DNA of 64,000 bases from the NCBI GenBank assembly GCA_947034885.2, contig OX344751.2, positions 21,328,001 to 21,392,000 on the forward strand. The letters are read 5' to 3'. The notes beneath the pieces are model-generated. The model ran no database searches. It was not told where the DNA came from and was given only the letters and a program-made list of their open reading frames with translations. Positions within the stretch are counted from its first letter, which is position 1; each line of letters opens with the position of its first letter. Source of the DNA: Thuidium tamariscinum. Lineage: Eukaryota; Streptophyta; Bryopsida; Hypnales; Thuidiaceae. The translations under genes and the position numbers were made by a program. This document shows, one piece after another, positions 11,531 through 62,467 of the stretch.

Positions 11531-12098
11531 GACAATCAAGGGCTTGAAGGCCAGATACACAACATGATTATGGGCTTTTGGTGAGATTTGGATGTGTTAG
11601 ATGGTGAACAGCCAGGACAATTGCAATTACTGTTACCTTCTCTCACAAATGATTAATTAATTTGTTGGCACAACATGTTGTGGAAATCCTTATCTGAATA
11701 TGTAGAACAAGCTTGTTTTTTAAACATTTTTGCACTTTGTTTTCTTGAATATTTGTAAGATGTTTTGTTTTATGTGAGTAAAATCAACTTCTTGTAGCTT
11801 TGGAGCTCAAGATTAAGTTGAAGGTTTGGAGACTGATAGGTTTGGTACAAGGTGATTTGGTATGTGCCAAATTATCCAAACTAACTACAAACTAGAATGT
11901 CAAAGCTAAATTAACCTTCTGTTTTAAGTTCCAAAACATAACCCAACACACATAGTTGGCTTGTTGTTAACAAATCAATTATGAAATCAATGCCTATTGT
12001 TTTGCTACTGGATATCAACATTGATATTATTGCATTGTAACAATTCATTAGATACAATTGAAGTTCCAAACATGTATGGAGAAAAAGGGAGGTTTAGG
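11531..12098. other. Spacer between convergent genes
   Basis: This holds the 3' flanks of the SET pseudogene (+) and of the unrecognised gene ending at 12099 (-). Nothing else is visible. Confidence 0.5.
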
Positions 12099-15000
12099 TT
12101 AATGGTAAAAGTAATCAGCATTGACATCCCAAGTTGGAGGAAAAACTTTGGGCAAAACTTTTTGGCCTGCAGGTGGCATTTTAGAAGGATCGCCTGGATA
12201 AAATTGCCATCCCAATTGTTCATGACCTAGAGTGAAACCACAACTATGTTAAGTTTGTGCATCAAGTCAACCACAAATTCGTTCATTGCTTTTTAGCAAT
12301 AGAGTTGCTCTTTAGAATTCCTACTTTTTTTTTAAAAATTCCTTATGTTCATGGCATGGTGGACTTTGATTTTCACATTGCAATTACAATATAGTACGTG
12401 CACCTATGATTGCCTCTCATTGCAAAAATAACTAAAATTGACTAAAATTTGGATAAAGGATCAACATGTGGCTTTTAGCAATTAGAAAATATTTCTTACT
12501 TAAATTGAGTATGAGAATTTTGATCCAAATATAGAAAAATATTCACTTTCCAAGTTCATTGTAGAAGAGCTAGTATTAAAATATGATAGAAGACACATTT
12601 ATAAAATAGGAAACCCTTGTATTGAATTCAAATGGTGAATTCACATAATAACACCTATGCAATAATTTCTCCAAATGGAATGCTTTATTTTCAATTTGTC
12701 ATGCCCAACCTTCTTCATGCATGCTCATATGCAAGATGTTGATATTTATGTATAGTTGATAATGGGCCTTTATACCTTATTCCTTCTAATATTTTAGTTT
12801 TAAAAATTTTAGTTAGATTGTGGAAGAAAAAAGACGATTAACTCACCTTGTTTGAGGTCACAATGCTTTTGATCCTTATTCTCTAGCTCATATGCATAAT
12901 GTGTTGGAAATGGGACATAAGTTGTAGGGTCTCGAGGATATGAAATAATCTTTGGAGGATAGACTACTCGTCCAAAGTCACCAGCAGCAATTTTTTTAGT
13001 CAAATCACCAGGATAGAATTTAAATTTTGATTTATGTCCTACATAGTTTCATACAAAGATTAATGACATAGAAAAATCACATACTTTTTCAACCAAAGGA
13101 AATCAATTGGAGAAATGCAAAGAATGTCCAAACCATTGTAAACTAATCTAATTGTTGATGTATCTTTTGTAGATTTTGAGTCTCTAATATCTAGGACTTG
13201 TGTTGTCATTCAAAATTAATTGGTTCGGAGATACTTGAGCTCTTTAATATTTGAGCTTGAGTTTGACATTATAAGGTTTAAGAAAGATTTCCAATTGGAG
13301 GGGTAAGATTTAGCTTTTTTATTTTTTTGACATGAGTAAAGGATGATTTTACAATTTTAAGTTGTTCATTATTATAAATACTTTATTTTATCTAGTTTTG
13401 TTTATCAAGGAACACATTCATTAATCATTAATTTTAATGATAGAAAATTATACTCCATCTCAATTAAAATAGCATCTTCAATTGAGTTACTCATTGTCAA
13501 ATCATGAATCCTTGCTTACCTTCCTTTAAATCACAATGCTTTTCACCTCCTACTTTGTGCTCGTCAGCATGAGGAAATGGCCATGGTTGAAATGTACTTG
13601 GATCTCTTGGAAAACTCAAGAATTGCTACACACCCTCAAATATAAGAATCACAATATTATGAATCAATGTTCGAGGTTCTTTTTTCTTCTTGGAAAGTAG
13701 GAACCTCCAATATAGCATTTTTTTGCCAACCAATGACTCTCTATAGATTAAACTAAATTCACTCTAAGAGATTCATGGAGGGATTCTTCCAATCTTCAAG
13801 GGGGAATGGTTTAGGCCGGTTAACAATGTTATATGACTTGTAGATCCTACATTGGCAAGTTCAAATGATATAATGGAATTGCAATTAATATTTTAGGTCA
13901 CATGCTACTTACTCGAGGGAGTTTGCCTTGTGAGGCATACTCGTGTCGTTCAAATGGCCAGTGGGTTTCCACAAATGGCTTGGGCTGAAATTGGTATACA
14001 TCATTATACAAATGTTAGTTCATGCAAATGTTGAAAACAAAAAGTTCAAAACAAAATTTTTATGTATCAAGAGTGTTGAATGATATAGTGAAGCTTACAC
14101 ATCTTTGACGACGTCGATACAAGTTGTTGCATTGACTTGGCTTACCCTCTCCATACTGCACACAAAGCCACTACATGTACTTGGAAGCTCTTGCTTACAA
14201 TGAAATTGAATTTGCAGTTTCTATATTGATTTTTTTCTCCAAAAATGGTAACAACCTCAACTAGGAAATGTAGCGTTTGATAGTATCTCCCAAGTGAAAA
14301 ACATCATTCTTTTGCAAGCACAATGTGCCACTACAAATGATTTTTTTGGTCATTTAATCCTTCAAGGACTCGACAATCAAATATTGAATAATGAAAGTAT
14401 CCAAACATTCCTTTCCCAAGCCCATTTGTGTTTGTTTTCATCTATGTATATGTTTACAAGTAGATTCTTGATTGCATAAGTTCTCTTATATTTGTATGGT
14501 ATAGATATTTAGAACTTTTCTTTCTAAATATTCTCTAGTTCAAGGCCTACCCCTAGTTCCTCCTTTGAGGTTAAGTCACTTTGGATTAAATGACACAAAA
14601 ATTAGCAACATGATTCAAATGAACTTGTGATTTCAGTGGTGTCAACTAATCCCTTTTTCTAGAAGTAACTAAGTGCCTGGATATAGATAGATTCTAAACA
14701 AAAAACTGGATTCATGATCGGTACCTTCACAACTACTTGATTGTGTTTTGTAGCAAAAGGAGCTGCTAATGTCGTGTTCTCTTGAATAATGGGAGGCTTT
14801 GGCGGTGGAGGACTCATCGGCCTGAATTTGGTTTCCCCAGGCTTACGATTCCAGGGCTCTTCATTCCACTTATTGTCTGGCTGTCAAAGTCCATCACCCA
14901 TCTCACAAAACATATTCTTAAATTGGGGTCTTTCAATAGAATGCAAAACAAACATAACTTTGAGCTTCATAACATAAAGTGCACACAACTTTTTCTTCAA

Positions 15001-16516
15001 TCAAGGTGGCTTCAAAATACAATCCAAGAGCGAAAACCAACCCTAACAATTGTTTGGGACTTGTGCATCAAATGGTCCCTAAATTCTTTTTGTATATAGG
15101 TGAATGAAATTTTGTGACTTCTTACATATTTGAGGTCAAAGACACGAGACTCTCGAGGATGCGCGAAGGAATCAAAGTCCAATTCCCATGGCAACTTGTG
15201 CACCTTCTTCAGCAACTCCGAACCAGCATCAACGTGGCCGAGGCAAAACCCATCCGACTTCATGTGCATGTGCTCGTCTTTCTCCCACGGTGGTATCACA
15301 ATCGGCCTTGTCTACTGCCATCACCGCAAGAGTTGCCCTTTTATCAATCACACAAACGCTATCACTCAATTGGGTATCAATGGAAGCAATTTGAATTTTG
15401 GAATGTTCGGCGAGAATGCAATCGTCAATCAGGAAAACAGAAGCCCAACGCTTGCTCAAGCAAGCTAGTGATAAGCATACATTTCATGTCAACATTCTTT
15501 TATGGCAACGATCTTCCCATTCCATTTCTAAAGAATTAGTAGGGTTTCCAATCAATAGCACAGAAATCCTCCTCGTGAATCACACCAAAAGTTTCAGCAT
15601 GTTATACCTTTCAAATTCTCATCAAAATACCTCTGGAACTCTCAAATTATTATTACTATTCAAAAGACCTTGTTAGTTTTTTCAGGAGATATCTCCAAAA
15701 TTCTCATCATCATATTATATCCCTGAAACTCTCTATTATTACTAGAAATCTTGTTAATTATCATCATGTTCTATCTCTAAAATTCTCATCATAGTATCTA
15801 TGAAACTCTCTGCTACTACTAGAAACCTTGTTAATTCTTCACGATGTATCTTCAAAATTCTCATCATGATTTCTCTGAAACTCTCTGATAATATCACCAG
15901 GAAACCTTGTTAGTTTTTCCATGATACATCTCTTGAATTCTCATCAAGATATCTCTGAAATTCTCTCCTTTTACTGAATCTCGTTAATATTTCATGATGA
16001 ATCTCTAAGCTTCTCACCGTGACATCTCTGAAACTCTCTCTCAACTCTTACTAAAAACCTTGTTAATTTTTCAAAAATCTATGGAACATCAAAGTTGCTC
16101 GGTCGCTTGGAGCTGACCTCTTCTTGCAAGGCTTCATTGTGGTAGGTGGCAAATGGCGCATTCGCAGAGGAGGACACCACCGCGGTGTTGAAAATCCCGG
16201 AGCCTCGCATCGGCCGGGAACGACCCAAAACCAGTTCCCAGGGACGAATTCCGGGCTCCCTCCACCAAGCGCGGTGTCGAAAATACGGCTCTGGGTTGTG
16301 CGGCGGGGGCTTGTAGCGGAGCTCGCCGCGGATGTCGTCGTCCAGCGCCCATGGCTCCTGGTGAAGCCGGCTCCTCGCCAAGTTTTGCTCATAGCTCACG
16401 TGGTCGGAGCGGTCGAAGCAGTAGCGGTGGTGGTGGGGTTTCACGTGGGGGGGTCCGAATTGGGACCTTGGAGAGAAGGCGATTTGCTTGGAGTTGCTTG
16501 CTTGAGGCATGCTCAA
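12099..16516 (-). CDS. Unrecognised eight-exon gene with duplicated PRDP / KHCDLK-GH / FYPGD motif
   Basis: Exons in transcript order: 16516 to about 16118, 15311-15126, 14880-14725, 14155-14099, 13984-13913, 13625-13520, 13038-12847 and 12226-12099 (stop TAA). Every junction from exon 2 on has GT and AG in matching phase, giving about 431 residues. The exon 1 donor is uncertain: GTCAGC after 16118 or GTTCCA after 16088, both phase 0. The protein is rich in Pro, Trp, Tyr and His, with WNRKPGETKFRPM and PPPPKPP stretches. Near the C-terminus a unit of about 60 residues is repeated: F/Y-PRDPS/TTF/Y, then KHCDLK-x-GH, then FYPGD. Both GH positions sit on a phase-1 intron, which suggests exon duplication. 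No signal peptide, membrane segment or known domain is seen. I do not recognise the family; the aromatic/proline-rich, domain-poor style recalls axonemal inner-microtubule proteins, but that is only a guess. Confidence 0.65.
15595..16080. repeat. Tandem repeat of about 80 bp in intron 1 of the unrecognised gene
   Basis: Six diverged copies of 72-87 bp are built around '(c/t)aaaattctcatca', 'tctctgaaactctct', 'actagaaaccttgttaatt' and 'atgat..atctc'. The array ends within about 40 bp of the exon 1 border and fills most of the intron. Confidence 0.8.
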
Positions 16517-17397
16517 TGGATTGAAATCGCAAGTTCACTTTCAAGTTGTTGCATAATCAAATCATACTCTCTCCATTGAAGCATGCTTAACTCTCTCACA
16601 CTGCTGTTTGATGTATGACAGAGAATTTTTGCATGGAAAATAGAATTGCAACTGTTCATCCTTGGAATTTTGTGCAGAAAGAGGGAGATCGTGAATTATA
16701 GTGGTTTGGTCTTCAATGAATACTTTTGAATTTTTTAAAGGACTGAGATGATTTGCATGGGTTCAAAAAGCATGATTTTCAAAGAGACTAGCCAGTCCTT
16801 ACAAGATTAATGAATTGAATTGGTGAGTTCACTTTCAAGTCATAGCAGAATCAAATAATACTCTATTCACTGCGGCAATTTTTGTGGGTTGAGTTGGTGA
16901 GTTAACTTTCAAGTCATATATTATAGTAGAACTAAATAATAGTCTCTTCCTTGGTAGCATTGTTAGATTGTCTTTTCATATCAAGATTACGAGATTTGTA
17001 TCCTTTTTTCATCAAAATTAGAGTCTCTTCAATGGTTGGATTCATTTGTACTTTGGACTCTTGCTATTAGAACTTGAATGGACAAGTGAAGAAAGGGGAG
17101 TGGAAAGGGGAGCTTCTTGCATTTGCCTACATTGTTGATTTGAGAATCTATAGTGATATGCAATATTTGAAGTTAGTACAACAATAGGTAGGTGAAATGA
17201 AGTAGGTGGTTGAATAATTTATGAGAAGTTGTAGAGGGAAACCTAGAGGATGGAAGAAATCAAGATAAATTGTGTAGAGTGTAGAAGATGTAAGAATTTA
17301 CTTTGCATCATTATTTGTGGCGAGTATTTGCAATGAGAATGGAAGTACAAAATGAAGGAACTAAGGATTTTTTTCAAGTAAGATTTGAAAGGGTAAA
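16517..17397. other. Spacer upstream of the minus-strand gene
   Basis: This would contain the promoter of the gene starting at 16516. A short motif, 'gagttcactttcaagtcat' followed by 'agaatcaaataatactct', recurs with changes near 16531, 16825 and 16895. No gene is seen. Confidence 0.4.
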
Positions 17398-45284: not shown

Positions 45285-45975
45285 GCCTCACAAACTCATA
45301 CATGCACAATTTGGAAATAAATGTGGCTTTGTTTAAGAACTAGCATTGCAACATGGAAAAAGTAATCAAGGTGGTTTCTAAATGTGTTCCTTCCTAAATG
45401 CTTGAATTAATCATTATTTCAAATTTTGTAACACTTGTAAGAAGGAATTTCAACAACCAAGTCTTATTTTATTCACTTAGTTGAGAATGAAGCCACTGTG
45501 GCTTTGAAACCATCCATTGAAAAAGGAAAAAACAAACTCTTATCATGCTCCAATGTAATTGGAAATTCATTTACCCACAATCAAGTTCCATTTCACAGCC
45601 TCCCACTGGATGGTTGCAAAAGCCTGGGCGATTTCAGAGCCCTCTGCTATAGTCTCTGCCAACCTCTCAGTTTGGTTAGAGTAAGTTCCGTGAATCCGTG
45701 AATCCAATGCGGGAAGTCCGGAACCTTCCTCGAACCTTCAGTGTGAGAGAGAGAGAAGTCGGCCTTCGATCAGCCTCGATGACGACGGATTCGTTTTTGA
45801 ACCATTGAGCTTTGCTCGTGCTCGTCTGCCTCGTCGCCCTCAACACATGTATTGTATTTTAGCTTGTTCAATTGGTTGCATCTTCCTCAATCCTCATGGT
45901 GTTTGTGCACCACTGTACTTTCCCGTCCGTAGGGCCTAGTTAATTGAGTGAATGTTTCGTGAATTTGGCGGAGAG

Positions 45976-46059
45976 ATGAAGCCGATTTTCGAGCATGTAG
46001 GCGATTTCTCGTCTGTTGGATGTGGTCTGTGGACCGAAGGGAAATCGGTGACTGTGTGA
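45976..46059 (+). other. Upstream ORF of copy A
   Basis: A 27-codon frame starts MKPIFEHVGDFSS and ends before the main start at 46158. Copies B (53192-53275) and C (59535-59609) keep the same start and first 13 codons, with V/A changes. It may be translated as a leader peptide; this is inferred only from conservation between recent duplicates. Confidence 0.35.
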
Positions 46060-46157
46060 GTGAAGTGGAGGAGTTAATTGGAAAGCGCCAGGAGTTGAGT
46101 GAAGCTCGGGTATTCGTAGACTGGACTGGACAGAAGAGCGAAGCGAAGAGCTCGAGG

Positions 46158-48534
46158 ATGTCTCCTTCTGAGCTGAGCTGGCTCCAAGGATGCTTGTTCT
46201 TGTTCCTGGGCCTCGCAGGTGGTTACGGTTTGAATCGGTGTCAAAATCGTCGGACTAACCACGGGACAAGGTAAGGATTCATGGTACTCACTGCCACTCA
46301 AACAGTCGTAGGGCATGCGTCCCCACTAAACCAATTTCACCATGGTCATCAAGTAAGGCCAAAAACAGTGGTTAGAAGGTGAGAGTCCTTCATAGGGTTT
46401 AGTTGTGGTCATGTTTTATTATTGCTAGCGTTTGGTTTTCAAAATCACCAATTTTCTTGACATGCTCATTTACACTTTGTGAAGTGGTACGAGCAAGAAC
46501 TTCATGTGAAACCACCCCTAATATACAAGGTTAAGAGCTGGGTCAAACAAGTCCTCTTGCCCTGGGTAGATTCGTCTGAAGTTGTGAGGGTTTGCAATGC
46601 GCGCAGTGATGTTGAATTGGGCAGGACCACCCCACCTCCATCCGATGATGCAGATTCCTCGGGAGGTGACGAGGAAGCAAGGTCACCTTGGAATCTTTCG
46701 AATCCTTTTGGCGAAGCCATGGCGTTCACCGGGTCTCCCAGGTGCCCTGATCGCAACAGACTCCGATCGAAGAGCCGTAGGCCTTCAAGAGGGCGAATGC
46801 AGCCTTCGGCTGAGACTAGGAAGAAGAGCCATTTCTTGGAATTCGTGGCCACAACGGCGGCCCCAAACTTCGTCAGGAGAGAGACAGCTGACAGGACCTC
46901 AAGTCCAATGTCTTCACCGACAGAGGGGCTGCTTCGACTTTCGGGAGGTGAGGACGAAGCTCTTTCACCTTCCTCGGGAGGTAACGAGGAAGCAAGGTCA
47001 CCTTGGAATCTTTCGAATCCTGTTGGCGAAGCCATGGCGTCCACCGGGTCTCCCAGGTGCCCTGATCGCAACAGACTCCGATCGAAGAGCCGTAGGCGTT
47101 CAAGAAGGCGCTTGCAGCCTCCGGCTAAGATTAGGAAGAAGAGCCATTTATTCGTGGCCGCAACGGCGGCCCCAAACTTCGTCAGGAGAGAGACAGCTGA
47201 CAGGACCTCAAGTCCAATGTCTTCACCGACAGAGGGGCTACTTCGACTTTCGGGAGGTGAGGACGAAGCTCTTTCACCTTCACATCCTGTTCGCGAAGTC
47301 CTGGCGTCACTCGGGGCTCCCAGTTGCCCTGATCGCAAGCGATACCGACCCGATTCTTGCAGGAGGATGAATGCACCTGAGAAAAGGACGAAGAGTCCTT
47401 TCATGGCCCAAGACGAGGCTGAGAACGTCGGCAGTTCCAGCACTTCGATGGCTTCAAAGACGGCGGTGCTTCGCCGACCTCCACGCCGACAGTTTGTTGC
47501 CAGACCGCCACTGGAAATTCCTTTGGTGGATCATGTTCAAGCCGGCACATCCGACGGCCTCCGCTTCCGCCCAAGGGGATCGCAAAAGCCTTCAGGAGAA
47601 GTAAGTGCATCGCCACCAGTTCTTTCTAAAGGTTGCGGTGTTTAATTAGCTTCATGTGTGTCCACAACCCCGTCAAATTCTGGCGTTCTTTACGTCACTT
47701 AATTGTGCTTCGCAAAGGAGGATCTTTGTAGAGCATTGCCACGAAGGAAGACAAGCCTATTACCACCCCGATTTTTTGCAATCTGACTATGTTGGGGTCG
47801 ATTTGAAGAAGGATACATATTTTTGAGAGGTGTGCGCATGTTTCACAAATCAAACCCAAGTGAAATTATAATTTTTGTAAATTTTTGAAGTGTGCAACTC
47901 TAAATTACAAAAGTGTCATAGACTAAGGTCATGAACACCCTAATAACAACCTATAACCAAGTTCGGAAGATGGACTTCGCTTTGATTTGTGAGGAGTTGT
48001 AATTTCTGTGTGTTCTGTTCAATTTCTTGTTTTTTTCTTACTCCAAAAAATTGTGTGCAGAGTGAGAGAGATATATTTAAACGTCTCGATAACTGGGCGC
48101 ATTTGGGAGATGAATCGGGCGTTCCTAAAGTGAACCGCAGAGCTGTGAAAGACTCGAGGGGCTCAGTCACACATTACAAGTACGAGCCCAGATTCAAGCC
48201 ACGCAGAGAGAAACTCGAGTCCGGCGGCTCGCTGCGGTTCAGTTACCTTCCTCTCGGTTTGTACGACACCCGCCGTGAGGCCGAGATTGTGCGTCACATT
48301 GCAGTGGTCCTGTACGGGAAAGAGGAGGGTCGTCCTGTGCAGTTTGAGGATGGACTTTGCCTTCCTTTTCCATCCGTGACCAATCATGAGAAGTGCCCTC
48401 CCTGTGGCAAGGAGAAAGCAGTTTGGGTAGCACGCAAAACCAAGGAGTTGTATGCAAAACTGGTAAAGCAGAAGGCAAACCGATTGCAACGACTCCATCA
48501 GCTCCTGACGCTCCCAGCACTGCTATTGAGATGA
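46158..48534 (+). CDS. AP2-like family copy A, with a different C-terminal exon
   Basis: Proposed exons are 46158-46270, 46607-47600 and 48061-48534, phases 2 and 0, giving 526 residues. Exon 1 starts MSPSELSWLQGCLFLFLGLA, with a hydrophobic run of about 17 residues followed by basic residues. Exon 2 is low-complexity, Ser/Pro/Arg-rich, with CPDRNRLRSKSRR-type basic motifs and a 105-residue internal duplication. Exon 3 ends the protein with LPLGLYDTRREAEIVRHIAV, which fits the second half of an AP2/ERF fold, but it is not homologous by eye to the AP2 exon of B and C. The start is the ATG kept in all three copies; the frame above it is broken in C. The exon 2 acceptor (after 46606 or 46624) is uncertain. 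AP2/ERF proteins are plant transcription factors, so nuclear function is likely but unproven. Confidence 0.55.
46656..47283 (+). repeat. 315-bp in-frame tandem duplication inside copy A
   Basis: The unit starts 'tcctcgggaggt' at 46656 and again at 46971, a period of 315 bp, which is 105 codons. Copies B and C have a single unit. Both units encode EEARSPWNLSNP, CPDRNRLRSKSRR and TSSPMSSPTEGLLRLSGGED. Confidence 0.9.
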
Positions 48535-48770
48535 TGCGCTTCACTCCAGCACATGAAGGCAATGGCGTAGAGGAGTGAGCAACTCGTAAATCCCATGGTT
48601 AAGTGCAGCGGAAGCTACGTAAATCCGAGGCAGGAAACTCCAAGCTGGAGCAGAAGCTACGTCAAGCCGAGGTCGAAAATGAGAAATGGAGATCCTTGTT
48701 TCACGAAGTAGCCAAATTGATGTCAGCTAGCTTCCAAGCTGGACGGATATCCCGTTGACCTCAGCAGAAG
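48463..48770 (+). other. Coding-like remnant downstream of copy A with a coiled-coil-like segment
   Basis: In the frame +2 relative to exon 3, AEGKPIATTPSAPDAPSTAI leads to EMMRFTPAHEGNGVEE and a stop. After another stop the same frame gives KLEQKLRQAEVENEKW, a heptad-like helix, and then FQAGRISR and a stop. It looks like the lost C-terminus of the gene that donated exon 3, disrupted by a frameshift and stops, or like extra exons I could not resolve. Confidence 0.4.
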
Positions 48771-48811
48771 GTTTAGAGTTTTTGAAAAGTTCCAAAGGTT
48801 TTGAAACCTGT

Positions 48812-48954
48812 CACAGGGAGTTTTTTTGGGTTTACTACGTAGTGAACTCACTACCATTACCACATTCAAAGTGGTGAAATCAGTACTATTACCACTTCCA
48901 AAGTGGTAATGGTAGTGAGTTTACCACTTAGTAAACCGAAAAAATCTCCCTGTG
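48812..48954. mobile_element. 143-bp foldback MITE near the 3' end of copy A
   Basis: Arms of about 60 bp are near-perfect inverted repeats: CACAGGGAG, 'gggtttacta', 'gaactcactaccattaccac' and their complements ending 'atctccctgtg'. The loop is only about 20 bp. It starts 277 bp after the copy A stop. Confidence 0.8.
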
Positions 48955-49565
48955 TGTTTGAGCAGGAGTCCGGTACAGTTATACCGTCATATAGAAGTTT
49001 GTGGTGCATCTTTTGAGTCCTCCACTTTCTCAAGGATGACACAGCGACCCAACGTGATTGAGTAGGTGATGTCAGTGTCTCTGTGAATTTTACGTTTTGA
49101 AAGATGCGTGCAGTTTTCTTGCAATAGGCAAATAGTTTCAGTTGCACGTTCTGGTAGATTTCGTGCTTTATCTTCTTCATGTAGTTCTTTGCCAAGCAAT
49201 GGCAAGTGAAATAAATTTGTTTGTGGCTCAGTGAAGACTAGAAATGCAACAATCTGATTTCAGTATTTTGACCAGGTTTGAAACATAGCCTACTGCGTGA
49301 AGTGCTTCGGTCATGGCATGCATTGGCTTTTCCGCAATGCAGTAATTTTTTGCTGGTGACATGAATTGTTGTCGAGTCCCCACTTAAGTTCAGAGTCATT
49401 TCTCTCACACCTGAAAGTTTGCCTAAATTGATCAAAGCATTGCAGTAGCTGCAAAACCTTGCAATCATTTTATGATGAAAATCATGGTATTCAAGATGCA
49501 GCGGATATCTTACGCAGTTCTTAATTGCATGCAACACTTTTGAATTGTTTTTTCAGCGCACTGTT
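48955..49565. other. Probable 3' flank of copy A
   Basis: The base composition is balanced but no frame is supported. Minus-strand frames of 99-109 codons exist here but lack domains and splice context. It may be 3' UTR or remnant of the gene that donated exon 3. Confidence 0.35.
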
Positions 49566-49845
49566 TACCGTACGTGTAGGTCAGTTTCGTAAATAACTCG
49601 GGAAAATTTGGAAGATGTTGAAATTCAGAAAATTATTTACAACCTTTTCTAAAAATTTGAAAAATTATTCTTTAGAAAAATTAAGGAACACATTTCTGCA
49701 TGAGTAGAAGAAATCAATCCAAAATTAGGAAGATCCTCACGAAGTGCCAAAAATTTTAAAAATTCCAATGTGTGCCAAATTATTGAATCGCAAAAAGTAA
49801 AATATTTCGGCATGAACCTGCCAAAACTGACCTACACGTACGGTA
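49566..49845. mobile_element. 280-bp MITE with 22-bp terminal inverted repeats
   Basis: It starts TACCGTACGTGTAGGTCAGT and ends with the complement ACTGACCTACACGTACGGTA. The interior is AT-rich and non-coding. No clear target duplication is visible. Confidence 0.8.
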
Positions 49846-51869
49846 CATCAATAGATTCGAAGCCAGCAAACTGAAATGAAACTCCACCTTGGAACATATG
49901 AAAGCATTGCCAAGCCAAAGCATTGCAGCTTCAGTTAGATGCCCATTACTCTTTCCTGTGTCCTGAGAATCCAACTGATGGTGGGAGATTGAATCTGTGC
50001 AGCAGCTGAAGATCAAACAGACAGACTTGTTACTAATTTGATTTGAGCTTGCAATGAACGGAGGGCCTTCAAATTTCCGCAGCAAGTGGGAGTGTCTGTG
50101 AGGATTACAGTCCCATAGCTAGTCAACATTACAGTCTTGGACTTCCAAAATGCATCTGATATTGTAGAGTATTGTTTATACTGTTTTCACATGCTTGGGA
50201 TTTTTCTGACAATGTTCTCACTGAGTAATTGGTTGGTAGATCCAAAACAAAAGCTTGAAATGAGAGTTTAGAAGATTAGTGTTCAAGTAAGTGATGTGTA
50301 ATTCAAATAAGCCTTCAGAAACATGAAAATAAATACTTTTTCTATATTGAAAGAACTTTTTCCTGTCTTTCATGTTTATTACTCCACATTTCTTTCTTGC
50401 TATTTTACTTGTTCTTCAACCTCAAACAAGGAGAAATGGTCTTTCTTTAGTTCTTTGCTTGTTATTGCTTTAGGTGACCAAAATCTAGAAAGTTGTGAAA
50501 TATAATTAAGAAGAAAAGTGTTGAAGTTAATTAAAATCAATTCAGTGGTTAGGATCAATCTTATTGGACTTAAGGTTATTAATTTAGTTTAAGCATTACT
50601 TCATCCTTTATACATACTATATCTCAATGAAACCATTGGATCAATTTGCTTTTACTTCATTCTCTTTTCATTAAGAGATGGAAATCTTGAAAAAAAAAAT
50701 TTCATAGTTGATATATTAATAATTTGTAAGCTGTAAACCTCAACATCACATTGGAATGGATATTAAATTTTAGGAGATTAATCTCTTACATTTAAAAGTT
50801 ACATTAAAATAAAGAAGTACTTAGATAGCAGTCAAAAAGATGGTCCAATCCCCTTTTAATACTATCCAACTTCTATTCAATCTTTACAACATGTGTAGGC
50901 AATTTCTTATGACATATCAAAATGTCATATTATAAAGTAAACTAATCCATGACACACAAATTGTCTAGTGTAGACACCTAGAAAACTACCCATTATACTT
51001 AGTTTTACATCAATCAATGGCAAAGTTTTTAAAATTAGTAAGATTAACACTTCATTAGGTTGGTTAGAAGCTAAAATCAATGCTTTAGATGAAGGTAATG
51101 GAATTATCAGTGATTGCTTTAGGAGATAAGACATTTTAGGCACACTTCTCAATGGTTTTGGGGTAGTTTAGACACCAGTTTAGGTCAATTGCGCAGCATA
51201 CATTACAAATTCATAACACATTTTTATTTTGGCAAGAAAGAAATTTTCAATTGCTCTCTCCATTTCTCACATTTGTCTTAATATGTCAAAAATGTCAAAA
51301 ATGTCAAAAATGTCAACAATACAAACTAATCATGCTACTTGTCATAGTTTGGTTGACCTTATACAATGACAATGAGATTATAAAATGAGTTTTCCGTCGA
51401 TGTGATTCTAGAGTTTTTTCAAGGTTAGGAATAAAAGGACATGATACAATACTGTCTACTAGTCCATTTACTTTAATCCCAAAATAGAATATGTGGTATT
51501 AAATCATGTGATATTGAATATGTCTATTTCTTAAGGTTTGTATTAATGCAAGCCAAGTAGTGGCTTTAGAACAAAACCCAAGGTAGCAAGTTCATAAATG
51601 GACCATTATATTGAAGGGTTGGAGGTGAATTTTGGAGAGGTGAACCATCTTTAAATATTATTTGGTAAATTTTTCTTGAAAGACAAATGGAATTGACATA
51701 CAATATAATTTGTTTTGGTATTTTTTGGAGTTTTGAAGAATTAGTTATAAATTTTGAAGTTGAAATGGCATGAGGCTCTAAAATGACCAACCTCTTGAAT
51801 GTACACTATTTGTTTATTATTGAAGGCAATGAAAAAGCAAGATGTAAAAAAAGTTTCTATTTATGTCAA
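49846..51869. other. Spacer between units A and B
   Basis: No gene is supported. A 9-bp microsatellite, ATGTCAAAA repeated four times, lies at 51283-51318. Confidence 0.4.
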
Positions 51870-53373
51870 TACACGTCTAGAAATATTTGCTTTGCCTTGC
51901 ATTACCGTAGATCATGTCCAAATGTGCTTATTTTATTAGTTATGGGTACCTCTACGATAATACAATCATCACAATCACTTTATACTACTTCCAAGGAGCC
52001 TCCCTTCTAATTTAGGTATGTAATAATAGAGTAACTCTGGTAAATAGATGATGGATGGATAGGATTTTAATTTGTGCCCATCCTATAAAAGGGTTTGAAT
52101 TATTTCCTTGTTTAATCTTTTATGAAAGACACATCTTGTGCAATTTTGAAGCAGATTCATCACCACTAGTCTTGTGAATGTCACTTAACAATGACAAGAG
52201 TATTTTTTTGGTGTAGTTAGTTGAAGGGCAACTTTCAAGAACTCATGAAGAATCAAGATCCAAATCAGGGCTTTTTTTTCATTTTTTATGAAGTGCCAAA
52301 GTGGTGATATAAAATGCAACAGTGGTGCTCCAAATTTCAGCATTCATCCACGTATTGGATAGAAAATTTCACATTAAGGTAAGAGGTCCTATAATGGACC
52401 ATCTAAGGGCTGAAACAGAATTTCAAGGAGGTTAAACCTCTAGAAATATTTTTCAGTAAATTTTCCTTGAAAAACAAGTAGAATTGACATCTAACCCAAG
52501 TTGTTTCATATTTTTCTGAGTTTTTTTGAATTAGTTATCAAATTCTGAAGTTGAAAGAGCATAGGGCTGTAAATGGTGCCCTAGCTACAATTTACACTGT
52601 TAGTACATTGATGAAGGCTATGAAAAAGCAACATGTACACCTCTTGTACATTTAAGATAGGGCACCATTTTAGGACCCGCTCCATTTAAGAGCCTTGTAC
52701 CTTAGCACATATCACATGAACACACTTCTATTTTCATCCACAATTTTGCAATTTCATCCAAAGTTTTTTAATATTGCAAACTTTTCTAGTGAAAACCTTC
52801 AAAGTGTTTTGCCATTTTTAGCCTATTTATTAATTTTTTTGGTGCAATTTGGCTCTAGAAAGCCGGAAAAAAAGCCTTGTCACAATAGACTGTCAACCTC
52901 TCAGTTTGGTTAGAGTAAGCCGTTAGTCCAATGCGGGAACCTTCCTCGAACCTTCAGTGTGAGAGAGAGAGAAGTCGGCCTTCGATCAGCCTCGATGACG
53001 ACGGATTCGTTTTTGAACCATTGAGCTTTGCTCGTGCTCGTCTGCCTCGTCGCCCTCAACACATGTATTGTATTTTAGCTTGTTCAATTGGTTGCATCTT
53101 CCTCAATCCTCATGGTGTTTGTGCACCACTGTACTTTCCCGTCCGTAGGGCCTAGTTAATTGAGTGAATGTTTCGTGAATTTGGCGGAGAGATGAAGCCG
53201 ATTTTCGAGCATGTAGGCGATTTCTCGTCTGCTGGATGTGGTCTGAGAAGCGAAGGGAAATCGGCGACTGTGTGAGTGAAGTGGAGGAGTTAATTGGAAA
53301 GCGCCAGGAGTTGAGTGAAGCTCGGGTATTTGTAGACTGGACTGGACAGAAGAGCGACGCGAAGAGCTCGAGG
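51870..53373 (+). repeat. 5' flank of duplication unit B
   Basis: This repeats the flank of unit A: 'catgtccaaatgtgcttatt' at about 51914, then a gene-proximal block from 52895 to the start codon that differs from unit A at few positions. Unit B lacks the MITE found in unit A. It holds the B upstream ORF (53192-53275). Confidence 0.75.
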
Positions 53374-54938
53374 ATGTCTCCTTCTGAGCTGAGCTGGCTC
53401 CAAGGATGCTTGTTCTTGTTTCTGGGCCTCGCGGGTGGTTACGGTTTGAATCGGTGTCAAAATCGTCGGACTAACCACGGGACAAGGTAAGGATTCATGG
53501 TACTCACTGCCACTCAAACAGTCGTAGGGCATGCGTCCCCACTAAACCAATTTCACCATGGTCATCAAGTAAATAAAGGCCAAAAACAGTGGTTAGAAGG
53601 TGAGAGTTCTTCATAGGGTTTAGTTGTGGTCATGTTTTATTATTGCTAGCGTTTGGTTTTCAAAATCACCAATTTTCTTGACATGCTCATTTACACTTTG
53701 TGAAGTGGTACAAGCAAGAACTTCATGTGAAACTACCCCTAATATATAAGGTTAAGAGCTAGGTCAAACAAGTCCTCATGCCCTGGGTAGAGTCGTCTGA
53801 AGTTGTGAGAGTTTGCAATGCGCGCAGTGATGTTGAATTGGGCAGCATCGTTGTAGATAATGGGAGCGCCCCACCTCCATCCGATGATGCAGATCCCTCG
53901 GGAGGTGACGAGGAAGCCAGGTCACCTTGGAATCTTTCGAATCCTGTTGGCGAAGCCATGGCGTTCACCGCGGCTCCCAGGTGCCCTGATCGCAACAGAC
54001 CCCGATCGAAGAGCCGTAGGCGTTCAAGAAGGCTCTTGAAGCCTTCGGCTGAGACTAGGAAGAAGAGCAGTTTCTTGGAATTCGTGGCCAAAACGGAGGC
54101 TCTAAACTTCGCCAGGAGAGAGAAAGCCTACAGTACTATTGTTGCTGACAGGACCTCAAGTCCAATGTCTTCACCGACAGAGGGGCTACTTCGACTTTCG
54201 GGAGGTGAGGACGAAGCTGTTTCACCTTCACATCCTGTTCGCGAAGTCCTGGCGTTACCCGGGACTCCCAGTTGCCCTGATCGCAAGCGATGCCGATCCG
54301 ATTCTTGCAGGAGGATGAATGCACCTGAGAAAAGGACGAAGAGTCCTTTCGAGAATTTCATGGCCCAAGACGAGGCTCGGAACGTTGACAGGCCAGAGCC
54401 GGCCAACATGATTGTTGCGGGCAGTTCCAGCACTTCGATGACTTCAAAGACCGCGGTGCTTCGCCGAGCTCCGCGCCGACACTTTGTTCCCAGACCATCA
54501 CGGGAAATTCCTTTGGTGGATCATGTTCAAGCCCGCACATTCGACGGCCTCCGCTTCCGCCCAAGGGCATCGCAAAAGCCTTTAGGAGAAGAAGAGAGGT
54601 TCAGAGGAGTCCGCTACAGATACGACCGAAGAACCTGGATCGCTGAGATGAGGCCACCAAAGTCTAATAAAAAGAAGTTCAGTTTTGGAGAATTCGAGTC
54701 TGAGTTACAAGCCGCCTATGCCGTCGATGCTGCGTTCTTCTATTACAATAAGCCACACCTAACGAACTTTCTGCATAGCACTCCTGCGATGATGGCAATG
54801 CTAACCCCGATTCCAACAGGTCTCGACGACAATTTAGACCGGATACGTTTCGTGAAGGACAACGCAATGCGGCTGGCGATGTATGCAGCAGACGTTCTGG
54901 CAGGAGTGACTCCTTCACTTGACAAAATCAACCAGTAG
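53374..54938 (+). CDS. AP2/ERF-domain protein, copy B (intact)
   Basis: Exons 53374-53486 and 53828-54938 give 407 residues. Residues 1-37 contain a hydrophobic run (GCLFLFLGLAGGYGL) and a basic end. The middle is Ser/Pro/Arg-rich with NLS-like CPDRNRPRSKSRRRSRR and KSRRRSRRLLK stretches. An AP2/ERF domain starts near residue 294: ERFRGVRYRYDRRTWIAEM, FSFGEFESELQAAYAVDAAF and the final HLTNF. The conserved WLG motif is replaced by SFG. AP2/ERF domains bind GCC-box/DRE-type DNA and occur in plant stress and development regulators. The second-exon acceptor could also lie after 53846. A TAG upstream in frame rules out a longer exon 2, supporting the two-exon model. This is the only copy with an uninterrupted AP2 frame. 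Confidence 0.75.
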
Positions 54939-56164
54939 TAACAAGAGGACGTGACGATTGCCCCACATCACCAATTCTTTTGCACTGGTTTAGTAGCGAT
55001 TGCATACTTTGCCCTCAACTCATGATCTATTTCGACCATTGCAAAAGTGTTGCAAACTTGTTGAAATAGTCTTGAGCTTGGAAACAATACATATCTATGC
55101 CTCGACTCTGGTGCAAATACTATTGCAAATCCATTGCACAATATGTTATACTAATGCATTGCAAAATTGTGAATACATTTCTCGCGGTCATTGCAAAATT
55201 ATTGCAAAAAGTAAGGCTATCTAACCTTTCTGGACAAGTGAATTTTGTGATGTGCCCAACTGCTCCAGTTGGTCGATTTTGTTTTTAACCAGTTGGTGTC
55301 TTTTTTCTTCAGGTTTAGAACGGAGGTACCGTATGCCTGTGTTCATCGTATCAACCATTTGTTTCTCGAAGGGAACTGGCTGACTCCCAACGAAAATATT
55401 TCTCCCCGTGCATTCTACCATCTGTTGTTCCGAGGAAAATTCGCTTATTTCACATTCGAGGTTGCCGGACTCAACAAATTTTTTGAATTGTTTATGGACT
55501 GGGATGCAGATCCCTTCCCTTGTGTAACAAGAAGTCTTGCATCTAACTTACAGTATGATGTATCTTGGACTGCATCTTGATAGATAGAACCAAGATGCAA
55601 CTCGTTTTGCACATTTGGATGATATTCTTTTAAGCGTGTAAGGGAGCAGAGCCAAAACGTGGCTCATAGTAGTCAAACAAATCGTTTTCATATTGAAAAC
55701 AGAAGTTCATATCCAGATTTTTCTGGTGTGAGTATCGTCATTGTGGTATATGCATAAACTTGAATTAAATACAAGCCGTTTTAGTTTCTTTTTTAATTTA
55801 AACATGATATTGTGTATTAAATGGCTTACATGTTCAGTATTCTGTATTTTAGCAATTTCGGCATTTAGTGATTCTTTTTCCATTTGAGCAAGAGTTACAA
55901 ATTGAGGATCCTCAAGATTAGGTTCTAATCCACTTGAGAATGTTCAAAAATTCCGTCAAATATTCTTGTGCAATTTGAGAGCCTATAATAACGTATTTTC
56001 CGAAATACAGAATGGCTTCCAAGTTTTACTACAGTATTGTGGACCAAAATACGTGAAATCTTCAGACTCATTAATTAAGCACACTCCATATTTGATGCGA
56101 GATTTCGTCACTTTCTCTTCAAAAGTCCACAGTAATTTCAAAATATCACAAGATATCTGAAAAT
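54939..56164 (+). repeat. 3' flank of unit B, matching unit C
   Basis: This aligns by eye with 61250-62467 at roughly 85-90 percent, and its start also matches the flank of the dead copy at about 39000-39480 ('gcaaatccattgcacaat' type words). It is probably 3' UTR and downstream DNA. Confidence 0.7.
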
Positions 56165-56830
56165 GTGACATATACAACACATCTGATTTCATCTTTAGGC
56201 AAAATGAAGCATGCAGTAGAGGATTCTGAGGTTGGAGGACATGCTCATAGGTCCTGTCCTAACAGGGTAAACGGACACAGCCAAGACTTCCAGACGCCAA
56301 CAAGAATTCCCTCCTCCAGGGTGGCACGCGTAATGGAGTTTTCATTGATCAAGCATGGGCTGCACGGTCTACGCAGCCCCAGTTTACACTACCAAGTCAC
56401 AAACTGCAGGTGCAAGAGGGTTTGTCAATCAGCTACTATACAGCGTTGATGGGGGTAGTATACAAGAAAGGATCCTAAGCAATAGTGTTTCATTCCCGGG
56501 CCAGTCCGAGGCTGCTTGGCGATCAACAGAAAAGCTACCCAAAGGGAAAGGTCAAGAGAGGCCGAAAGTCGCGTCGTCATTGTGCTGCTAACCGAAGCAA
56601 TTCATTGTGTTCATCGGACACAAAGGAATCCACTTTGAATCTCTGAGCGGGCGCTTTGTTCTTCCGATCTCCTGTTCGCGGTCTAGGCCACACAGGATCC
56701 GGGGACAGATGTTTGATTCCAATCAACGTGTTCAAAGCTGGCACAACAAACAATAAGAACATGAGTACGAGATCTCAGTTCAAAACGCCCTTGGATTCAT
56801 CGAAGGGCCTCAGAAAAGCCGAGTAGACTA
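56165..56830 (+). repeat. Highly conserved 3' block of unit B
   Basis: About 665 bp, nearly identical to 62468-63137: five or six substitutions and one 3-bp deletion by eye. One plus-strand frame reads NGVFIDQAWAARSTQPQFTL and, after a stop, KSYPKGKVKRGRKSRRH. The 3-bp indel lies in that Arg run. Three stops interrupt this frame, so it may be a captured gene fragment rather than a working exon. Confidence 0.6.
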
Positions 56831-57548
56831 CCTCTGAAGAATTTTTGCTTTTGTCATTGCACCTCTTAAAATATTTGTTTTATCTTGCACCACCCTACAA
56901 ATATCATGTCCAAATGTGCTTATTTTATGAAGTTATGGGTACCTCTACTACAATTCAATCATCACAATCACTGTGTAACACTCCCAAGGAGCTTGCCTCC
57001 AAACTTAGCTATGTAATAATAGAGTCACTCATCTATTTACTTTGAAAAATAGATGATGGATGAAGGAGATTTGAACCCCTAAAGGACCATTGTCCCTTTG
57101 GGGGACAAATGGGATTTGGGGCAAATACCTATGGGTCCAAATTTTATCCTAATTTCTTGAAACTTTTTTTAAAGTTAGAAAAACTGATTAGCTTGATGGG
57201 AATATAGTTTTTTCTCAATTGGTTTCTAAAAATAAAAATAATGCCCAAATAAGCTCAAAATGGTGAAGACCAAGCAATGAAAATATTTCAAAAATTTTAA
57301 AGAGAAATAATAATTTCTTCTCATAGATATTATTTTTTTTCTACCTAAAAAGCTTTGATTCAATCCATTTGGATTTATTATGGAAAAGTTATGGACAATC
57401 TTGTTTTTTAGGCAATTTAATCATCTTCTTGAAACAATAACTTGTAGGATTCAATTCTAAATACAATTTTTATAATTTCTCAAGAAAAATGCGCATGGTT
57501 TATTTTGCTTGCTAGAACAATCTCACCATTAGGATTAGTGCATCTTAA
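56831..57548 (+). repeat. 5' flank of unit C
   Basis: From about 56860 the sequence repeats the start of the flanks of units A and B ('catgtccaaatgtgcttatt', 'acaatcatcacaatcac'-type words), then diverges into AT-rich DNA. Confidence 0.55.
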
Positions 57549-58245
57549 TTCCATCTTAGAGATATTAATAATTTAGATTTTCCTTCTATATTGTACCTAC
57601 TTCTATCTAACAATTTTTCAAAGAACAAAAATTAAGTTTTTTTGGATTTTTTTTTCGTAGACTGTCAAGTCAATTATACACTACAAAGATTTAAAGCTCA
57701 AAACTCTATAGTGTAAAGAAATAAAGTTAAGAAAATTCAAAGTCAAATAATCCAGTTCTACAATGTGCTAAACAATATAATTCCATCTTAGAGATATTAA
57801 TGATTTAGATTTTCCTTCTATCTTGTACCTACTTCTATTTTGACAATTTCTCAAAGAACAAAAATAAAGTTTTTTTGGATTTTCTTTTCTGTAGACTATT
57901 AAGTCAATTATACACTACAAAGATTTAAAGCTCAAAACTCTATAATGTAAAAAAATAAAGTTAAGAAAATTCAAAGTCAAATAATCCAATCTTATAATGT
58001 GCTAAACAATTTAATTCCATCTTAGAGATATTAATTATTTAGATTTCCTTCTATCTTGTACCTACTTCTATTTGACAATTTTTCAAAGAATAAAAATAAA
58101 TTTTTTTGTATTTTTTCTTCTGTAGACTATCAAGTCAATTATACACTACAAGGATTTAAAGCTCAAAACTCTATAGTGTAAAAAAATTAATTTAAAAAAA
58201 ATTCAAAGTCAAATAATGCAGTCCTACAATGTGCTAAAAAAAATT
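57549..58245 (+). repeat. 233-bp tandem repeat, three copies
   Basis: Units start 'ttccatcttagagatatta' at 57549, 57781 and 58015 (periods 232 and 234). Each ends near 'caatgtgctaaa'. The copies differ by scattered substitutions and A/T run lengths. The array is absent from units A and B. Confidence 0.88.
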
Positions 58246-58969
58246 GTTTTTTTCACTTTAAACGTAGAGATCTTGCCATCTGTGTTGTAAAAAAATTTGA
58301 GATTTTTCTATATACTCTCATACTAATTAGGACATTAGGTGTAAGATCCTATGGTTAGATGTGCAAAAAAAAAAATAGTTTTCAGATTTTTTTACTCTTT
58401 GCTTTAGAAATGGTAATTTTAAGTGTGCTTTTTTGTAGAAAGAAGGCCTTTAGTTGGTCCTTCAAGGGTTAATTTGTGCCCATCCTATAAAAAACTTTAG
58501 TTGTTTTCTTCTTTATTCTTATGAAAGATGCATCTTGTACAATTTTAAAGCAAATTCGTCACCAAAAGTCTTGTGAATGTCATTTAACAATAACAAGAGT
58601 ATATTTTTGGTGTAGTTAGTTGAAAGGCAACTTTAGAGAACTCATCTTGAATCATGATCAAAATCAGGCCATTTTTTCATTTTTTATGAAGTGCCGTAGT
58701 GGCAATATAAAATGTGATAGCAGTGCTCCAAATTTCAACATATTGGATAGAAAATTCCACATTAACACATATCGCATAAACATACTGTACTTCTATTTTC
58801 ATTGCCATATCATCCAAGAGTTTTCCCTAGTACAAAACTTTCTGGTGAAAAACTTCAAGGTCTTCTGCCATCATTAGCCCATTTTTTTTTTCTGGCGCAA
58901 TTTGGCTCTCACTAGAAAGCCAAAAATAAAAAGCCTTGTCACAGTAGACTCTCAGTTTGGTAGAGTTTC

Positions 58970-59268
58970 TTAGTGAAGTAAGAGGCGTTTCCCATGGAGG
59001 GCCTGGAACCTGGAGTCCAAGTGGTTCCCATGGCTTGAGAGAGGGACCTGCAGCTGATGTTCAATTTTTTTGGAGCTGGAGGGCCAGACCCCGCCTGGAC
59101 CCCCGCCTGGACCCCCCCAGATTGGCAGTTCCACAGCGTTTTCGGGGTCGGTAGTTGCTAGGCCGTTTCCCTGCCTCAGTTTTTACATGCCTTGGAGGGG
59201 AGGAGCCCAGGGGCCTCCAGCTCCCCATCCGGCCCCTGGACCTCCAGGGGACGGCCCTAACTTCCGTG
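58970..59268. other. GC-rich insertion of about 300 bp upstream of copy C
   Basis: Units A and B pass directly from 'cagtttggttagagtaag' to 'gcgggaaccttcctcgaac'. In unit C about 300 bp stand between these points, with a composition far more GC-rich than any neighbour, containing 'gcctggacccccgcctggac' and 'cggcccctggacctccaggg'. No frame or domain is recognised. It could be a transposon, captured DNA or a local duplication of an expressed sequence. Confidence 0.6.
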
Positions 59269-59693
59269 TCCGATGGGGGAACCTTCCTCGAGCCTTCAGG
59301 GTGAGAGAGAGCGGAAGATGACTTTCAGTCGGCCTCGTCTTTGAACCAAGTTATTGAGCTTTGCTCGTGCTCGTCTGCCTCGTCGCCCGTACCACATACG
59401 TTGTAGTTTAGCTTGTTCAATTGGTTGCATCTTCCTCAATCCTCATGGTGTTTCTGCTCCACTGTACTTTCTCGTCGGTAGGGCTTAGTTAATCGAGTGA
59501 AGCCATTTGTGTGTTTCGTGAATTTGGCGGAGAGATGAAGCCGATCTTCGAGCATGCAGGCGATTTCTCGTCTGTTGGATGTCGTCTGTGGACCGAAGGG
59601 AATCGGTGACTGTGAGTGAAGTGGAGGAGTTAATCAGGAGTCGAGTTAAGCTCGGGTATTTGTAGACTGGACTGGACAGAAGAGCGACGCGAA

Positions 59694-61249
59694 ATGTCTC
59701 CTTCTGAGCTCAGCTGGCTCCAAGGATGCTTGTTCTTGTTTCTGGGCGTCGCGGGGGGCGTCGCAGGAGGTTACGGTTTGAATCGGTGTCAAAATCGTCG
59801 TCGGACTAACCACGAGATAAGGTAAGGGTTCATGGTACTCACTGCCACTCAAACATTCGTAGGGCATGCGTCCCCACTAAACCAATTTCACCATGGTCAT
59901 CAAGTAAAGGCCAAAAGAAATGGTTAGAAGGTAAGAGCCTTCAAAGGGTTTAATTGTGGTCATGTTTTATTATTCCTAGCGTTTGGTTTTCAAAATCACC
60001 AATTTTCTTGACATATTCATTTAGAATTTGTGAAGTGGTACGAGCACGAACTTCATGTGAAACCACACCTAAAATACTAGGTTAAGAGCTAGGTCAAACA
60101 AGTCCTCGTGCCCTGGGTAGATTCGTCTGAAGTTGTGAGGGTTTGCAATGCGCGCAGTGATGTTGAATTGGGCAGGACCACCCCACCTCCATCCGATGAT
60201 GCAGATTCCTCGGGAGGTGACGAGGAAGCAAGGTCCTCTTCGAATCTTTCGAATCCTGTTGGCGAAGCCATGGCGTTCACCGCGGCTCCCAGGTGCCTTG
60301 ATCGCAACAGACTCCGATCGAATAGCCGTAGGCGTTCAAGAAGGCTCTTGAAGCCTTCGGCTGAGACTAGGAAGAAGAGCAGTTTCTTGGAATTCGTGGC
60401 CAAAACGGAGGCTTTAAACTTCGCCAGGAGAGAGACAGCCTACAGTACTATTGTTGCTGACAGGACCTCAAGTCCAATGTCTTCACCGACAGAGGAGCTA
60501 CTTCGACTTTCGGGGGGTGAAGATGAAGCTCTTCCACATTCACATCCTGTTCGCGAAGTCGTGGCGTTACCCGGGACTCCCAGTTGCCCTGATCGCAAGC
60601 GATGCCGATCCGATTCTTGCAGGAGGATGAATGCACCTGAGAAAAGGACGAAGAGTCCTTTCGAGAATTTCATGGCCCAAGACGAGGCTCGGAACGTTGG
60701 CAGGCCAGAGCCGGCCAACATGATTGTTGCGGGCAGTTCCAGCACTTCGATGACTTCAAAGACCGCGGTGCTTCGCCGAGCTCCGCGCCGACACTTTGTT
60801 CCCAGACCGTCACGGGAAATTCCTTTGGTGGATCATGTTCAAGCCCGCACGTCCGACGGCCTCCGCTTCCGCTTCCAAGGGCATCGCAAAAGCCTTTAGG
60901 AGAAGAAAAGAGGTTCAGAGGAGTCCGCTACAGATACGACCGAAGAACCTGGGTCGCTGAGATGAGTCCACTAAAGTCTAAAAATAAGTTCAGTTTTGGA
61001 GAATTTAAGTCTCAGTTACAAGCCGCCTATGCCGTCGATGCTGCGTTCTTCTATTTCAATAAGCCAGACCTAACGAACTTTCTGCATAGCACTCCTGCGA
61101 TGATGGCAATGCTAACCCCGATTCCAACAGGTCTCGACGACAATTTAGACCAGATACGTTTTGTGAAGGACAAAGCAAAGCGGCTGGCGATGTATGCGGC
61201 AGACATCCTGGCAGGAGTGACTCCTTCACTTGACAAAATCAACCAGTAG
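59694..61249 (+). pseudogene. AP2/ERF-like copy C, frameshifted before the AP2 domain
   Basis: Exon 1 (59694-59821) starts MSPSELSWLQGCLFLFLG and has five extra codons (a VAGG-type repeat). Exon 2 begins at 60158 and follows copy B until about 60870, where two extra bases ('cgcttccgcttccaag' against 'cgcttccgcccaag') shift the frame. Translation would stop at 60897-60899, giving about 289 residues without an AP2 domain. The domain itself is intact in the next frame: KRFRGVRYRYDRRTW, FSFGEFKSQLQAAYAVDAAF, to the stop at 61247-61249. It may be a pseudogene, or may still make a truncated protein that cannot bind DNA. Its upstream ORF is shorter (59535-59609). Confidence 0.75.
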
Positions 61250-62467
61250 TAACAAGAGGACGTGACGATTGCAACACATCACCAATTCTTTTGCACTGGT
61301 TTAGTAGCGATTGCATACTTTGCCCTCAACTCATGATCTATTTCGACCATTGCAAGAGTGTTACAAACTTGTTGAAATAGTCTTGGACCTGGAAGCAATG
61401 CATATCGATCTATGCCTCAACTCTGGTGCAAATACTGTTGCAAATCCATTGCACAATATGTTAAACTTATCCATTCCATTACAAAGTTGTGAAAAGATTT
61501 CTCGCAGTCACTGCAAAACCATTGCAAAAAGTAGTGCAATTTCACCCTTCTGGACTAGTGAATTTTGTGATGTGCCCAACTGCTCCAGTTGATCGATTTT
61601 GTTTTTAACCAGTTGGTGTCTTTTTCTTCAGGTTTAGAACGGAGGTACCGTATGCCTGTGTTCATCATATCAACCATTTGTTTCTCGAAGGGAACTGACT
61701 GACTCACACCTAAAATAGTTCTCCTGGTACATTCTACCATCTGTTGTTCCGAAGAAAATTCGCTTATTTCACATTCGAGGTTTATTGCAACAGCTTTTTG
61801 AATTATTTATGGACTGGGATACCGATCCCTTCCGTTGTGAAACAATAAGTCTTGCATCCAACTTACAGTATGATGTATCTTGGATAGATGGAACCAAGAT
61901 GCAACTCGTTTTGCACATTTGGATGATATTCTTTTAAGCGTGTAAGGGAGCAGAGCCAAAACGTGGCTCATAATAGTCAAACAATCGTTTTCATATTGAA
62001 AACAGAAGCTCATATTCAAACTTTTCTGGTGTGAGTGTCGTCATTGTGGTATATGCATAAACTTGAATTAAGTACAAGCCGTATTAGTTTGCTTTTTAAT
62101 TTAAACATGATATTGTGTATTAAATGGCTTACATGTTCAGTATTCTGTATTTTAGCAATTTCGGCATTTAGTGATTCTTTTTCCATTTGAGCAAGAGTTA
62201 CAAATTGAGGAGCCTCGAGATTAGGTTCTAATCCACTTGAGAATGTTCAAAAATTCCGTCAAATATTCTTGTGCAATTTGAGAGCCTGTAATCACGTTCT
62301 ATCCGAAATACAGAATGGCTTCAAAGTTTTACTACAGTATTTTAGACCAAAATATGTGAAATCTTCAGACTCATTACTTAAGCACATTCCATATTTGATG
62401 CGAGATTTCGTCACTTTCTCTTCAAAAGTCCACAGTAATTTCAAAGTATCACAAGATATCTGAGAAT
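61250..62467 (+). repeat. 3' flank of unit C
   Basis: This is the counterpart of 54939-56164, with more substitutions and small gaps than the block that follows it. Confidence 0.7.

Follow-up and report, generated by a model that had tools for sequence, protein, structure and literature searches.

The window analysed here (64,000 nucleotides of Thuidium tamariscinum, contig OX344751.2, positions 21,328,001 to 21,392,000) carries on its minus strand an eight-exon gene which, together with its family, can be regarded as secure, exon 4 apart. The predicted protein is organised as N, N, linker, C, C, with two N-terminal modules (N1 and N2) and two C-terminal units (A and B). Judged by sequence similarity, the gene is kin to three further loci of the same genome, on contigs C10, C1 and C4, and makes up a small family of repeat proteins with them. 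An initial annotation of this DNA had observed the C-terminal repeat; the observation was right and understated, and its interpretation is supported in part. The duplication of the N module and the relatives in the same genome go beyond it.

The gene extends from an ATG at 16510 to a TAA ending at 12099, and its eight exons comprise 1290 nt encoding 429 amino acids. The initial annotation had proposed eight exons with phase-matched junctions and a clean stop, and this structure was confirmed, including coordinates, strand and GT-AG boundaries of all seven introns, with exon 4 unproven. The spliced frame passes through in-phase junctions without stop or frameshift, and the intron phases are, in order, 0,0,0,0,0,1,1. 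Five of the seven donors read GTRAG, the remaining two being GTCAG (exon 1) and GTACC (exon 3). Exon 1 (16118..16510, minus strand, as are all following coordinates of this gene) begins with the ATG and encodes the 131 residues of N1, ending ...SSANAPFATYHNEALQEE at its phase-0 donor. The second module is divided between exon 2 (15126..15311, 62 aa) and exon 3 (14725..14880, 52 aa), which ends ...TTLAAPFATKHNQVVVK, likewise at a phase-0 donor. Exon 4 was first drawn at 14099..14155 (19 aa) and is followed by exon 5 (13913..13984, 24 aa), the linker. Unit A starts in exon 6 (13520..13625; FPRDPSTF...KHCDLKEG), which has a phase-1 donor. The symmetrical 1-1 exon 7 (12847..13038) holds the end of unit A (GH...FYPGD) and the start of unit B (YPRDPTTY...KHCDLKQG), and exon 8 (12099..12226) contributes the end of unit B (GH...FYPGD...YFYH) and the stop codon TAA. 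Intron 1 (15312..16117, 806 b) contains a 75-b minisatellite. A second copy of the gene was not found in the assembly search.

Junctions in matching phase prove little by themselves, as suitable splice sites can always be picked. Therefore, an unsupervised search for the longest splice chain was run over positions 12050-16560, with dinucleotide shuffles as the null. Under strict settings (GTRAG donors and YAG acceptors) the chain was 897 nt long, a length reached by none of 200 shuffles (maximum 828); this comparison supersedes an earlier one with 20 shuffles (897 vs a maximum of 486). The strict chain landed exactly on the ATG at 16510, the stop and exons 2, 5, 6, 7 and 8, and it shortened exon 1 and omitted exon 3, since neither of them ends at a GTRAG donor. 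When the donor rule was relaxed, a chain of 1314 nt was obtained (maximum 921 in 10 shuffles), in which exons 1 and 5-8 were exact, exon 2 was too long and exon 3 was recovered in part (14821-14725). Exon 1, exact in the looser chain only, is homologous to exons 2-3 and to exon 3 of the C10 relative. For exon 3, absent from the strict chain, support comes mainly from the resemblance to exon 1. The drawn form of exon 4 is unproven: both chains took 14220-14146 in place of 14155-14099, and the true structure may be either that alternative or an in-frame skip.

Composition was in line with this gene model. Each of the eight exons (GC 0.359-0.611) lies above each of the seven introns (0.263-0.351), and the coding frame scored +0.12 bits/codon compared to -0.27 to -0.01 for the five other frames, in a rough test whose training set of 1124 codons leans on an AP2-like frame. 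Taken singly, exon 2 (1/142 null stretches as high) and exon 3 (8/287) stood out. No clear excess was observed for exon 4, with its ordinary score (599/2164), exon 5 (200/1584), exon 6 (218/814), exon 7 (36/132) and exon 8 (54/567); for exon 1, a null stretch of equal length was not available. Exon 4 excepted, the locus combines a chain beyond chance, consensus splice sites and protein selection, as a real protein-coding gene would. That it is instead a pseudogene or a chance chain of open frames is highly improbable. The absence of exon 4 from the unsupervised chains, the weak donors GTCAG and GTACC, and the scores of exons 4-8, which singly are not clearly above background, would fit such a reading; against it stand the strict chain length, unmatched in 200 shuffled sequences, the intact spliced frame, the synonymous change between the C units, and the homology and common intron position with the C10 relative.

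The genomic spans of the two C units were computed by hand from the exon table. Unit A (12953..13918, aa 287-352) is interrupted by intron 6 and unit B (12135..12958, aa 351-418) by intron 7, and the two introns agree in position and phase. Thirty of the 66 aligned residues are identical (score 145, shuffled mean 26.9, equalled in 0/500 shuffles), and both units follow the pattern PRDP-[ST]-T-[FY] ... KHCDLK-x-GH ... FYPGD. Introns 6 and 7 each split the glycine codon of the GH after its first base (phase 1), so that the C-terminal repeat with its GH on phase-1 introns, as first noticed, was borne out. At 17 of the 30 identical residues different codons are used, as expected of an old duplication kept by protein selection. 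Between the two introns themselves no similarity was detected at E <= 1; similarly, the C units showed no significant similarity to the N modules or to the C10 relative. The exon duplication suggested at the outset holds as far as the repeat is exon-aligned, but it was not a plain one: exon 7 resembles exon 8 in its 5' part and exon 6 in its 3' part. The simplest account is that a segment with a single phase-1 intron was duplicated, with breakpoints lying within exons, and that exon 7 arose from this as a fusion.

A second internal duplication was found in the N-terminal half, where exon 1 (131 aa) aligned to exons 2-3 (114 aa) with a score of 69 against 31.8 +/- 5.9 for shuffles (0/500 as high; BLASTP E 0.001). 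Common to N1 and N2 are the marks H-x-x-PW-x-LD-x-D, W-x-R-x-PG and APFAT-x-HN. Each module ends at a phase-0 intron soon after the last of these, and N2 has an additional internal phase-0 intron.

Relatives were sought in the whole assembly (363 Mb, 19 contigs). The C half gave three matches at E <= 0.001, each an exon of the window gene itself, and residues 1-288 gave six matches at E <= 10, five of which were again the window gene and one of which lay on C10 at E 0.18. The N half belongs to a repeat family marked by PW ... P[FY][AG]T-x-x-[N/D], with three more loci on C10, C1 and C4. The C10 relative (C10:23408917-23412142) was predicted, with its exons joined by hand, as a gene of seven exons and 304 aa; its introns are all phase 0 and two of them are GC-AG. 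Each of its exons 1-5 encodes a unit APW-[FND]-K ... P[FY][AG]T-x-x-[N/D]. The relatives on C1 (from 35635807) and C4 (from 12090320 downwards) were modelled as exon 1 only, and both first exons start M-[SP]-S-T-[NT]-APYATL.

Direct comparison of the window protein with the C10 protein by BLASTP yielded a match of 39% over 56 columns (E 8.7e-8; E 1.25e-7 in the comparison run alongside shuffled proteins), including 42 ungapped residues that run up to an identical intron position: intron 1 of the window gene and intron 3 of the C10 relative fall in the same alignment column, in phase 0, after the unit. The window protein also matched the C1 exon (E 2.8e-5), and its match to the C4 exon (E 0.099) was not significant alone; among 300 shuffled window proteins, which served as the null for these comparisons, the lowest E was 0.001. 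When the similarity to C10 was resolved by part, shuffles scored as high in 0/2000 cases for N1 alone, in 118/2000 for N2 alone (not significant) and in 1625/2000 for the C half. The similarity to C10 resides in N1 together with the N1-exon 2 junction. Searched against the assembly, the C10 protein found C1 (E 1.9e-17) and C4 (E 2.8e-12), and the window gene at E 0.70 only, and the C1 exon matched only itself, C4 and C10. The strings KHCDLK, PRDP and FY[PS]GD were absent from the coding-strand frames of 10 kb each at C1 and C4. The C10 relative has FYSGD, but it lacks the KHCDLK of the window gene, and its product is acidic (pI 5.4), whereas the window protein is basic.

No Pfam family was assigned to the window protein, searched whole and as four pieces, or to the C10, C1 and C4 relatives. 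Several PDB sequence searches with the window protein returned no match at E <= 10, and the remaining ones, with this protein and its relatives, returned matches at E 0.65 to 4.5 only, which were judged to be chance. These were the acetyltransferase 3shp for the window protein and, for the relatives, the antibody chain 3dvf, 8r1d, the saposin-like 2js9, OST3 (6c26) and IJAP3 (9y6s, E 4.5), which by its name may be an inner-junction protein. In the literature, the name IJAP3 did not occur among the matches listed, the KHCDLK and FYPGD strings gave an unrelated match only, and for five PFAT-type strings the titles among the matches listed look unrelated. Relatives of the window protein were also not found in viral and prokaryote contigs. 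The gene had initially been left outside any family; this stands for Pfam and for the PDB, where matches were at chance level at best, but within its own genome it does have a small repeat family.

The predicted protein has a mass of ~50 kDa, a pI of 9.1 and a GRAVY of -1.0, and is rich in Pro (12.8%), Trp and His; the chain is probably extended. Its maximal 19-residue hydropathy is 0.65 without any membrane stretch, and by eye no signal-like N terminus was seen. A structure model of exon 1, which as a single-sequence prediction without alignment says little, had a mean pLDDT of 47.8 and one 8-residue helix, with no fold.

The composition had been taken to recall axonemal proteins, an idea that presupposes swimming sperm. 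To our knowledge, dynein heavy chains are altogether lacking from flowering plants. In the present genome, the dynein heavy chain AAA1 domain gave 25 matches, grouped as six clusters on C1, C2, C3, C4 and C8, and radial spoke protein 3 (RSP3) gave four. Because both are present, the plant very probably has swimming sperm. A search for RIB43A gave no matches, and neither did its controls. Loss of many flagellar genes in conifers, Gnetum and flowering plants is described in one report (PMC9023351). Neighbours of the window gene include a proteasome subunit and a bicarbonate-transporter-family protein, together with an ABC transporter piece and an AP2-like frame whose matches lie below the Pfam cut-off.

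The axoneme idea is plausible in a plant that very probably has swimming sperm, and the basic, hydrophilic protein without a membrane stretch fits it, but direct support was not obtained. Neither the window protein nor its relatives had a credible PDB match to an axonemal chain. The DUO1 motif RRCSGTT was not found within 2 kb upstream of the window gene, leaving control by DUO1 unsupported, and for the four genes of the family the first upstream kilobase held 0, 0, 0 and 1 such sites. These counts favour a conserved, lineage-specific repeat protein unlinked to flagella, namely a disordered cytosolic or nuclear scaffold, acting for example in stress biology, with repeats that bind some other partner. 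The acidic C10 relative of a basic protein points the same way, as does the fact that all hard evidence concerns the gene and its family and not the place of action. On the other hand, short aromatic and proline-containing repeats without a fold are, in a flagellate plant, at least typical of axonemal proteins, as general knowledge and PMC10973386 indicate. We hold such a scaffold to be quite possible, and a role in sperm akin to that of microtubule inner proteins (MIPs) to be equally likely.

The same source (PMC10973386) describes how MIP repeats, among them Mn, PYG and GFG, attach to the inner wall of the microtubule. Literal NWE, PYG, GFG, SNYG and SHIPPO strings each occurred zero times in the window protein. 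The minimal Mn syntax [TS][TS]x4[YF] occurs at matching positions of the two N modules (SSANAPF and TTLAAPF), which would suit a classical Mn/SAXO protein, or a member of another known MIP module family, diverged past recognition. We consider this improbable. Two or more such matches also occurred in 83 of 2000 shuffles, and the syntax is found in only five of 15 hand-listed units from the four loci. The Mn-like stretch of the N modules contains a proline, which makes a helix like that of Mn units less likely, and the conserved core P[FY][AG]T-x-x-[N/D] with PW differs from the Mn syntax. Pfam gave no match, and PDB profile hits were at chance level only. None of the MIP motifs tested was conserved across the family.

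Repeat proteins of this kind commonly lie along polymers. The most specific reading of the window protein, which we put forward tentatively, is a MIP-like structural protein of the sperm axoneme or spline. Its repeats would then be short linear docking units along a repetitive polymer, for which, in a plant that has kept radial spokes and dynein heavy chains, the sperm axoneme or a spline microtubule would be the likeliest candidate. As a lineage-specific, MIP-like strut, the protein could contact successive tubulins with each repeat unit and thereby stiffen the microtubule. A wider proposal is that the window gene and the loci on C10, C1 and C4 found a family of land-plant proteins that sit in the microtubule lumen of the sperm axoneme or of the plant-specific spline. 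The PW/P[FY][AG]T units would then be a new kind of tubulin-docking repeat, and the family would have been kept solely in lineages with swimming sperm; this we consider rather unlikely.

Whatever its place of action, a repeat family with a clear motif can be searched for directly in antheridial transcriptomes and proteomes. Furthermore, the locus illustrates how open-frame and domain-based annotation may overlook a gene with short exons whose product is a fold-poor repeat protein. We know of no list of lineage-specific parts of the plant sperm axoneme, and a structure of it was not found among the literature matches listed.

Compared to Mn-repeat proteins (MAP6/SAXO, FAP363), the window protein is similar in carrying short repeats in a fold-poor chain, with the Mn syntax in both N modules, but it differs in the restriction of that syntax to a third of the family units and in the absence of a Pfam or credible PDB match. 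Lineage-specific MIPs offer another parallel. Twenty-seven trypanosomatid MIPs unseen in earlier structures, many of them without a globular domain, are described in PMC7617938, and PMC10105768 gives a further precedent for lineage-specific, fold-poor MIPs in Tetrahymena. Whereas the trypanosomatid proteins (DMIPs; PMC7617938) were located by cryo-EM and the window protein is predicted from sequence, the likeness lies in an apparent restriction to one clade, in the lack of a visible globular domain and in a proposed structural role.

Relatives of the eight-exon window gene with PW/P[FY][AG]T repeats lie on contigs C10, C1 and C4 of the same genome. On C1 the relative begins at position 1807 of the stretch L033, and on C4 it occupies the minus strand of the stretch L034, with its first exon running from C4:12090320 downwards. 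These two first exons are 61% identical to one another, and the subsequent exons were found as fragments only.

Within the window, three similar segments (45890-62749) were observed near 46, 53, and 60 kb, spaced ~7 kb apart; they apparently represent a recent tandem triplication. The frame SPWNLSNPVGEAMA... is present near 46 and 53 kb, with a close variant near 60 kb, and the AP2-like frame FRGVRYRYDRRTW was found near 54 and 61 kb. The 117-aa translations of frames 56096-56446 and 62399-62749 are identical. Additionally, intron 1 of the window gene contains a minisatellite (15667-16068) in which a 75-bp unit is repeated in tandem ~5.2 times, with divergence between the copies.

The relative on C10 (L023 2917-6142, G000:C10:23408917-23412142) carries one repeat unit per exon in exons 1-5. 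Its introns are in phase 0 throughout, two of them with GC-AG borders. Its C terminus, PLFYSGDDGPFNAPYATEPR, bears a short, tentative resemblance to the FYPGD motif of the two C-terminal units of the window gene's protein.
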